Below, one piece after another: positions 38,386 to 40,210 of a stretch of DNA of 64,000 bases. Made by a program: the position numbers and the translations under genes. Origin of the DNA: Hoeflea marina. Its GTDB lineage: Bacteria; Pseudomonadota; Alphaproteobacteria; Rhizobiales; Rhizobiaceae. The stretch spans positions 744,001 through 808,000 of the forward strand of contig NZ_QGTR01000003.1 of NCBI RefSeq assembly GCF_003182275.1, in the 5' to 3' direction. Every line of letters begins with the position of its first letter. Positions within the stretch are counted from its first letter, which is position 1. The notes below the pieces were generated by a model. It was not told the DNA's origin, searched no databases, and saw only the letters and a list, made by a program, of their open reading frames with translations.

Positions 38386-39786
38386 TCAGTACCTGTAGTG
38401 TTCCGACTTGAACGGGCCCTTCGGGCTGACGCCGATATAGGCGGCCTGTTCGTCGGACAATTCGGTCAAACGCGCGCCGAGCTTGTCGAGATGCAGCCGC
38501 GCCACCCGTTCGTCGAGGTGCTTGGGCAGGACATAGACCTGATTCTCGTAGTTCTCGCCCTTCGAATAGAGCTCGATCTGGGCCAGAACCTGATTGGTGA
38601 AGGACGCACTCATGACGAAGGACGGGTGGCCCGTGGCGTTGCCCAGGTTGAGCAGCCGGCCTTCCGAGAGCAGGATCATCCGCTTGCCGCCGGGGAACTC
38701 GATCATGTCGACCTGCGGCTTGATGTTGTCCCATTTGTAGTTGCGCAGCGACACGACCTGGATCTCGTTGTCGAAGTGACCGATGTTGCCGACGATCGCC
38801 ATGTCCTTCATCTCGCGCATGTGTTCGATGCGGATGACGTCGCGGTTGCCGGTGGTGGTGATGAAGATGTCGGCGGAGGCGACTACGTCCTCGAGGCGAA
38901 CGACTTCAAATCCGTCCATGGCGGCCTGCAGCGCGCAGATCGGGTCGGCCTCCGTCACCTTGACGCGGGCGCCGGCGCCGCTGAGCGATGCAGCTGAGCC
39001 CTTGCCGACGTCGCCGTAACCGCAGACGACGGCAACCTTGCCGGCCATCATCACGTCGGTGGCCCGGCGGATGCCGTCGACCAGCGATTCCTTGCAGCCA
39101 TACTTGTTGTCGAATTTCGATTTGGTGACCGAATCGTTGACATTGATGGCCGGGAAGGGGAGCAAGCCCTTCTGATGCAGCTGATAGAGCCGGTTGACGC
39201 CGGTCGTGGTCTCTTCGGTGACGCCGCGAATCGCATCCCGCTGCTTCGTGAACCAGCCCGGCGACAATTCCATCCGCTTGCGGATCTGCGCGAACAGGAT
39301 CTCTTCCTCTTCCGAGGCGGGGTTCTTGAGAACATCCTCTCCAGCCTCGGCACGGGCGCCGATCAGGATGTACATTGTGGCATCGCCACCGTCGTCAAGG
39401 ATCATGTTGGAGAAGCCGCCATCGGGCCACTGGAAGATCCGATCGGAATAGTCCCAGTATTCCGTGAGCGTCTCGCCCTTGACCGCGTAGACCGGAACGC
39501 CGCTCGCCGCGATGGCGGCCGCCGCATGGTCCTGGGTCGAGAAGATGTTGCACGAAGCCCAGCGCACTTCCGCACCGAGCGCCACCAGGGTTTCGATCAG
39601 CACCGCAGTCTGGATCGTCATGTGCAGCGACCCGGTGATGCGGGCGCCCTTGAGCGGCTTGGAGACGCCGAACTCTTCGCGGCAGGCCATCAGGCCCGGC
39701 ATTTCCGTTTCGGCGATGGTGATTTCCTTGCGTCCGTAATCGGCCAAGGCAATGTCGGCTACTTTGTAGTCCTGGGTGGCGGACAT
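38386..39786 (-). CDS. ahcY: S-adenosylhomocysteine hydrolase
   Basis: Splits S-adenosylhomocysteine to adenosine and homocysteine, keeping methylation reactions running. 466 aa with the NAD-binding loop [16 protein letters not shown], the N-terminal substrate region ([16 protein letters not shown]), [11 protein letters not shown] with the catalytic residues, and the C-terminal KSEHYRY cofactor hook. Separate from the upstream HPr gene by 133 bp, which contains a long palindrome, and followed by its own terminator. Confidence 0.98.
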
Positions 39787-39870
39787 GGAGGTCTCCCGCT
39801 GGATGGCGCCGCCACCGGAGAGCCCGGAGCGATCAGTTCGGCGGTGCCATATCAGGAATCAGAAGCGCGT

Positions 39871-39908
39871 GCAACCATGACATAAAGATGTCTTTATGTC
39901 ATGGTTGC
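39871..39908. promoter_or_regulatory. 38-bp near-perfect palindrome between ptsH and ahcY
   Basis: Two 18-bp arms, GCAACCATGACATAAAGA and its exact reverse complement, flank a 2-bp TG centre. It lies 85 bp upstream of ahcY and 12 bp after the ptsH stop. The core ACATAAAGA-N2-TCTTTATGT looks like an operator for a dimeric regulator. From memory it resembles sites reported for the ArsR-family SahR regulator of methionine-cycle genes; I could not check this. As RNA it would form a very stable hairpin but lacks a U tract. Confidence 0.7.
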
Positions 39909-39919
39909 CAGGATGCGCA

Positions 39920-40210
39920 TCATGCTTCCTCGCCGAACCGGTCGACGATCAGGGCCTCCAGCGCGTCGAGCACCTCGACGGCCTGGCGGCCGCTGGCGGC
40001 AACGTGAATGACACAGCCCGGGCTTGCCGCCAGCATCATCAGCCCCATGATCGACGTGCCGCCGACCGTATTGCCGTCGCGCGTCACCCGGACGTCGGCA
40101 TCATACCCTTCAACGGTCTGGACAAAGCGCGCCGAGGCCCGCGCGTGCAGGCCACGCTTGTTGATGATCAGCAGTTCCCTGGCCTGGGTGGAGTCGGCGG
40201 ACGCGATCAT
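39920..40210 (-). CDS. ptsH: HPr family phosphocarrier protein
   Basis: Small phosphocarrier, 96 aa. The phospho-His22 is in NKRGLHARASARF, and the regulatory Ser53 is in GGTSIMGLMML, the site targeted by HprK. In Rhizobiales this HPr belongs to a sugar-independent regulatory PTS (PTS-Ntr-like) fed by PtsP encoded elsewhere. Overlaps the EIIA gene by 4 bp (ATGA). Confidence 0.95.
   Translation of the reverse strand: MIASADSTQARELLIINKRGLHARASARFVQTVEGYDADVRVTRDGNTVGGTSIMGLMMLAASPGCVIHVAASGRQAVEVLDALEALIVDRFGEEA

Follow-up and report, generated by a model that had tools for sequence, protein, structure and literature searches.

A Long Palindrome Upstream of ahcY in Hoeflea marina: A Predicted SahR Operator with Lineage-Specific Outer Arms

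The Palindrome and Its Surroundings

The window, a stretch of 64,000 nucleotides of Hoeflea marina DNA, carries a 38-bp near-perfect palindrome at positions 39871–39908; no strand is assigned to it or to its symmetric parts. It lies between two genes of the minus strand, ptsH (39920–40210), the upstream neighbour encoding HPr, and ahcY (38386–39786), which encodes S-adenosylhomocysteine (SAH) hydrolase and is the predicted regulated gene. The protein-family matches (PF00381, E 1e-24, and PF05221, E 9e-146, respectively) agree with the placement between the HPr gene and ahcY given in an earlier note on this DNA. Between the palindrome and the ahcY ATG lie 84 bases, and between it and the last base of the ptsH stop codon 11. 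Its arms, 39871–39888 and 39891–39908, pair at 18 of 18 positions (100% complementary) around a 2-nt TG centre. With spacers of up to 8 nt allowed, no other perfect inverted repeat in the window is as long, the four runners-up reaching 10 nt, and in a control of 30 first-order Markov sequences, each as long as the window, the maxima are 9–12 nt. The window scan and the Markov control thus bear out what the earlier note had said of the exact 18-bp arms and their 2-bp centre: the palindrome is real and far beyond chance.

The palindrome consists of a 20-bp core, ACATAAAGATGTCTTTATGT (39880–39899), and an outer arm of 9 bp on each side. The core is a predicted SahR operator, on the strength of five places in the organism's own genome and its conservation in the family. 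The −35 element of the ahcY promoter, TTGCAC (39869–39874, minus strand), has its first four bases within the outer arm on the ahcY side (39871–39879) and is followed by an extended −10 element, TGATATGGC (39846–39854, minus strand). Both elements are unmapped and were placed by alignment with relatives alone, a scan of the palindrome region for the sigma-70 consensus having returned no promoter. In that alignment, all 70 ahcY leaders with the core have TTG 2–6 nt downstream of it, and TTG together with TGNTA, the extended −10, occurs at a fixed distance in 64 of the 70 (shuffles: mean 0.1, maximum 2). The core has a fixed place beside a conserved promoter-like sequence. The outer arm on the ptsH side (39900–39908), which from the standpoint of ahcY precedes the operator, probably repeats the −35 side in inverted form, as discussed below.

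The Core Motif and the Predicted SahR Regulon

At up to three mismatches, the core, ACATAAAGANNTCTTTATGT, is found at five places in the 5.26-Mb genome, while the reversed-pattern control is found at none. All five are at SAM-cycle genes: ahcY, sahR-metF, bmt, the gene for the pterin protein of a split MetH, and metK. The bmt site belongs to a betaine/homocysteine S-methyltransferase (NCBIfam PRK07534) and the pterin-protein site to a protein of the methyltetrahydrofolate:corrinoid methyltransferase type (PRK07535), while the metK site lies 55 bp upstream of its gene. Because the PRK07534 and PRK07535 proteins match distinct parts of MetH, methionine synthase appears to be split into separate proteins in this genome, two of which carry a core site of their own.

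The genes of the split enzyme lie on contig C4 (L006, L007), where homocysteine, corrinoid and pterin proteins are accompanied by two SahR-type sites. The same region encodes an AcsV/RamA-like activase, an MttB-like methyltransferase and a second MTHFR-like protein, and the methionine synthase genes adjoin an apparent glycine-betaine ABC transporter set, the transporter being named by eye.

The putative regulator gene has its own site, with the core 16 bp before the sahR start codon. It lies on contig C13, is followed by metF, and encodes a protein of 338 aa in which an ArsR-type winged helix (HTH_5, E 1.4e-13) is joined to a SAM-methyltransferase-like domain. Its identity as SahR is assigned from these domains, the site and the metF neighbour rather than by comparison with a known SahR sequence. 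Of 17 congeners, 16 have long matches to it at 73–75% identity; the remaining one is a genome that is 77% complete.

The core is also widespread among relatives. In a sample of 101 genomes drawn from the family, H. marina included, it is present at up to two mismatches in 93, and the control pattern in 2. Eighty further sites, 77 from this sample and 3 from two additional genomes, show the same association: 77 have a SAM-cycle match starting 9–167 bp downstream, and 3 match none of the proteins tried. These matches are to ahcY (15), sahR (21), a homocysteine-methyltransferase or MetH domain (29), the pterin protein (7) and metK (5). Upstream of ahcY itself, the core is present at 28 of 30 loci of relatives (from 37 matching genomes, H. 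marina included) and at 42 of 79 named loci, a count from which L100 was dropped as it comes without upstream DNA. The 37 named loci that lack the core all come at or below L104 in the list, and their titles assign most of them to Rhodobacterales. The earlier note had proposed that the palindrome serves a methionine-cycle repressor of the ArsR family, similar to SahR, as its operator, had advised a genome scan for the core, and had held that the lack of both a second core near methionine-cycle genes and conservation in related ahcY leaders would speak against it. The scan returned the sites at sahR-metF, bmt, the pterin part of MetH and metK, the core recurs in related ahcY leaders, and the proposal is supported.

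Of the 70 ahcY leaders, 25 carry a third half-site (AYATAAAG, up to two mismatches; 9 exact copies) adjoining the core in tandem on its upstream side, as against 3 with one adjoining it downstream, where the −35 element lies. The exact copies are from Rhizobium-like genera and Pseudochrobactrum (example leaders L072, L073, L078, L081, L084 and L110). This tandem half-site may give SahR a second contact.

Leyn et al. (2014, PMC4239095) describe the SahR of Alphaproteobacteria as having a 20-bp palindrome and a core regulon of sahR, ahcY, metH, metF and metK, with bhmT as a further target in some; sahR mutant data exist for Ensifer aridi (PMC8877191). The system described here is like the published one in its 20-bp palindrome, its type of regulator and its target genes ahcY, metF, metH and metK, the likeness of the operators being judged by length, symmetry and target genes. 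It differs in that the palindrome extends to 38 bp at ahcY and about 42 bp at sahR, as opposed to 20 bp, and in that methionine synthase looks split, with two parts that have their own site. The SahR regulon itself is thus already published, and the predicted operator in the core is most likely an ordinary one.

Judged from sequence comparison, the probability that the inner 20 bp are the operator for this genome's SahR is roughly 85%. The predicted repressor would bind next to the ahcY −35 element, on its upstream side, and would repress ahcY jointly with metF, bmt, the split metH and metK. Rising SAH would then release it, a response taken from published SahR work and predicted for H. marina.

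Distribution of the Outer Arms

The outer arms are distributed quite differently from the core. None of 17 Hoeflea congeners has a further symmetric pair adjoining the core at ahcY, and among 18 genomes of the genus the 34-bp extended pattern is confined to H. marina. The comparison of ahcY leaders called for in the earlier note therefore has a divided outcome: the core is conserved, but the full arms are absent from 17 of 17 congeners. H. marina has a second case at sahR, where the palindrome spans about 42 bp with one mismatched pair and includes an 11-bp perfect run beyond the core.

Perfect runs of at least 7 bp beyond the core are present in 3 of 66 distinct ahcY leaders, those of H. marina, L042 (genome G001) and L088 (Martelella lutilitoris), versus 0.05 expected from shuffled flanks. 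H. marina had been singled out as the extreme case before it was included in this test, which favours chance symmetry around a real operator. Without the Hoeflea rows, however, and with all site types considered, such runs are still present in 2 of 90 sites versus 0.06 expected, in rows that share ancestry and so are not independent trials. The 11-bp run at the sahR of H. marina and one of 14 bp in Martelella L190, whose perfect arms reach 23 bp, are separate instances, and chance is scarcely credible as an explanation.

The symmetry could instead mark the whole 38 bp as an extended DNA site, in which the outer arms are touched by SahR, or by SahR and a further protein, and owe their continued symmetry to selection. 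In two groups the arms have indeed been kept. Runs of at least 4 bp beyond the core are present in 12 of 17 Hoeflea sahR leaders, with two apparent two-sided changes (position 13 in H. marina and position 16 in L156), and runs of at least 5 bp in 9 of 13 Martelella ahcY leaders, with one apparent two-sided change (position 11 of L187). Elsewhere, however, most sites have no outer symmetry. Among 80 other sites the longest run beyond the core is 4 and 76 have a run of 2 or less; a mixed subset of 30 of these has no run of 3 or more, and the run is 0 in all 17 congener ahcY leaders. Furthermore, by inspection, the outer arms vary in sequence from locus to locus and from lineage to lineage. An extended motif common to SahR sites in general was rejected: the outer symmetry of 90 non-Hoeflea sites averages 0.339, versus 0.327 for shuffled ones (P 0.20), and their excess over shuffles is a tail of long runs only. 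An extended site is therefore unlikely, though it retains some weight. As far as sequence conservation can tell, the outer 9 bp of each arm are lineage-specific and not part of the conserved operator, and they are probably unneeded for SahR recognition.

RNA Hairpins, Terminators and Riboswitches

A palindrome of this kind could also act in RNA, as a hairpin that closes the ptsH message (a terminator, a processing signal or 3'-end protection) or, at sahR, as a structure hiding the Shine-Dalgarno sequence. The predicted hairpins are strong (−27.8 kcal/mol, z −7.3, at ahcY and −28.3 kcal/mol, z −6.4, at sahR), as expected for any perfect palindrome of such length. Mismatches within the arms point in both directions. 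G.U pairs prevail over A.C pairs in the outer positions of Hoeflea sahR, with 8 G.U, 0 A.C and 2 other mismatches in 102 cells at positions 11–16 and 15 G.U, 6 A.C and 13 other in 85 cells at positions 17–21, and also in 44 ahcY cores of other genera, with 30 G.U, 16 A.C and 13 other in 396 cells. The opposite is seen in the Hoeflea cores, where G.U is absent and A.C accounts for 14 of the 162 ahcY cells (a single position supplies all 14) and for 15 of the 153 sahR cells; at outer positions 11–16 of ahcY in other genera the two are equal, 24 against 24. In Martelella cores they are even, 2 and 2. The cells in all these counts share ancestry.

Two further points weigh against a role in RNA. 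The extra arms at ahcY are found in none of the 17 congeners, and at sahR the core appears to cover the −10 element of the sahR promoter, as judged by eye, so that the left arm would be untranscribed from the gene's own promoter. An intrinsic terminator was rejected, as the palindrome has no stem followed by a T-run; the sole terminator-like site in the scanned stretch is at 40143–40157 on the other strand. The second role suggested in the earlier note, a hairpin parting the PTS genes from ahcY, thus finds weak support at best given the lack of a T-tract terminator, the missing arms in congeners and the mixed mismatch counts, and a hairpin function at either gene is very improbable.

SAH and SAM/SAH riboswitches control ahcY or metK. 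PMC4239095 describes such riboswitches as controlling methionine-cycle genes in other Proteobacteria. They answer to the same metabolites, but here a riboswitch was rejected, the Rfam covariance models giving no match at the gathering threshold across the 64-kb window.

Origin of the Outer Arms

Template switching offers a mutational origin for the arms. At quasipalindromes, it can write a reverse-complement copy that creates or perfects an inverted repeat in one step, two-sided changes included (PMC8794818, PMC7202029). At ahcY, replication would have switched template at the palindromic core, and the downstream −35 flank would thereby have been copied in inverted form to the upstream side. 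When the upstream 20 nt of H. marina are reverse-complemented and compared with the −35 flanks of its congeners, the mean score is 6.5, versus a mean of 2.4 and a highest value of 4.1 for the congeners' own upstream flanks; the downstream flank of H. marina scores 3.4 with the downstream flanks of its congeners. Shuffles reach the mean of the reverse-complemented flank in 0.3%, 0%, 0% and 0.1% of 2000 trials for 14, 18, 20 and 24 nt. The resemblance arises in part because the arm mirrors a −35 region found throughout the genus, and beyond the perfect arm it is weak (P 0.04 and 0.09).

A small inversion of the region would be another route. The downstream flank of H. marina scores 3.2 with the inverted upstream flanks of its congeners, hardly below the 3.4 of the uninverted comparison. 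The downstream side, however, keeps TTG and TGNTA at the positions that they occupy in other leaders, making an inversion doubtful.

Other lineages give a mixed view of the direction of copying. Relative to two congeners, G001 has changed at 4 of 7 bases upstream and at 1–2 of 7 downstream, and the flanks of H. marina and G001 together fit inverted copying of the promoter side onto the opposite flank. The order at pair 11 of Martelella L187 is the opposite of the proposed direction: the change on the promoter side seems to have come second, L188 having the other half only. In L190 the downstream flank is identical to that of L188, while the upstream DNA is wholly different between the sister species; because it has been replaced, no ancestral upstream flank is left for comparison. 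In L187–L191 generally, the gene upstream of ahcY varies between sister species and the alignment ends just past the upstream edge of the operator.

The history of the locus in Hoeflea has its own complications. In the AhcY tree, the congeners' proteins group with some AhcY of Rhodobacterales and that of H. marina does not, while its ptsH and SahR, unlike AhcY, are closest to those of the same genus. This suggests an exchange of the ahcY coding region. The genus-wide comparison of leaders is less secure because AhcY does not group with the congeners and no very close relative was found.

Template switching during replication is the most likely origin of the outer arms, but the comparisons above give it only about an even chance; any regulatory role of the arms is hypothetical. 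For the persistent arms, those of Hoeflea sahR and Martelella ahcY, re-perfecting by template switching and selection for a longer site would each account for the pattern. PMC8794818 describes such re-perfecting for RNA hairpins, whereas in the present case a transcription-factor operator would act as the seed. In a literature search by title, covering part of the matches, none concerned template switching that lengthens bacterial operators. We tentatively suggest, at somewhat less than even odds, that short operator palindromes seed palindrome growth, such that template switching at SahR operators repeatedly copies one flank, mostly that of the promoter side, onto the other and gives long perfect arms that differ in sequence between lineages and are perhaps then re-perfected.

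Implications

For H. marina, the outcome is a predicted SahR regulon that includes a split methionine synthase. More broadly, where symmetry continues past a known motif, neither a longer binding site nor an RNA element has to be assumed. Should template switching be a general feature of operators, it would give their symmetry a simple mutational path both to emerge and to persist. If operators do seed palindrome growth in this way, long promoter palindromes would be mutational scars and not evidence of longer binding sites.
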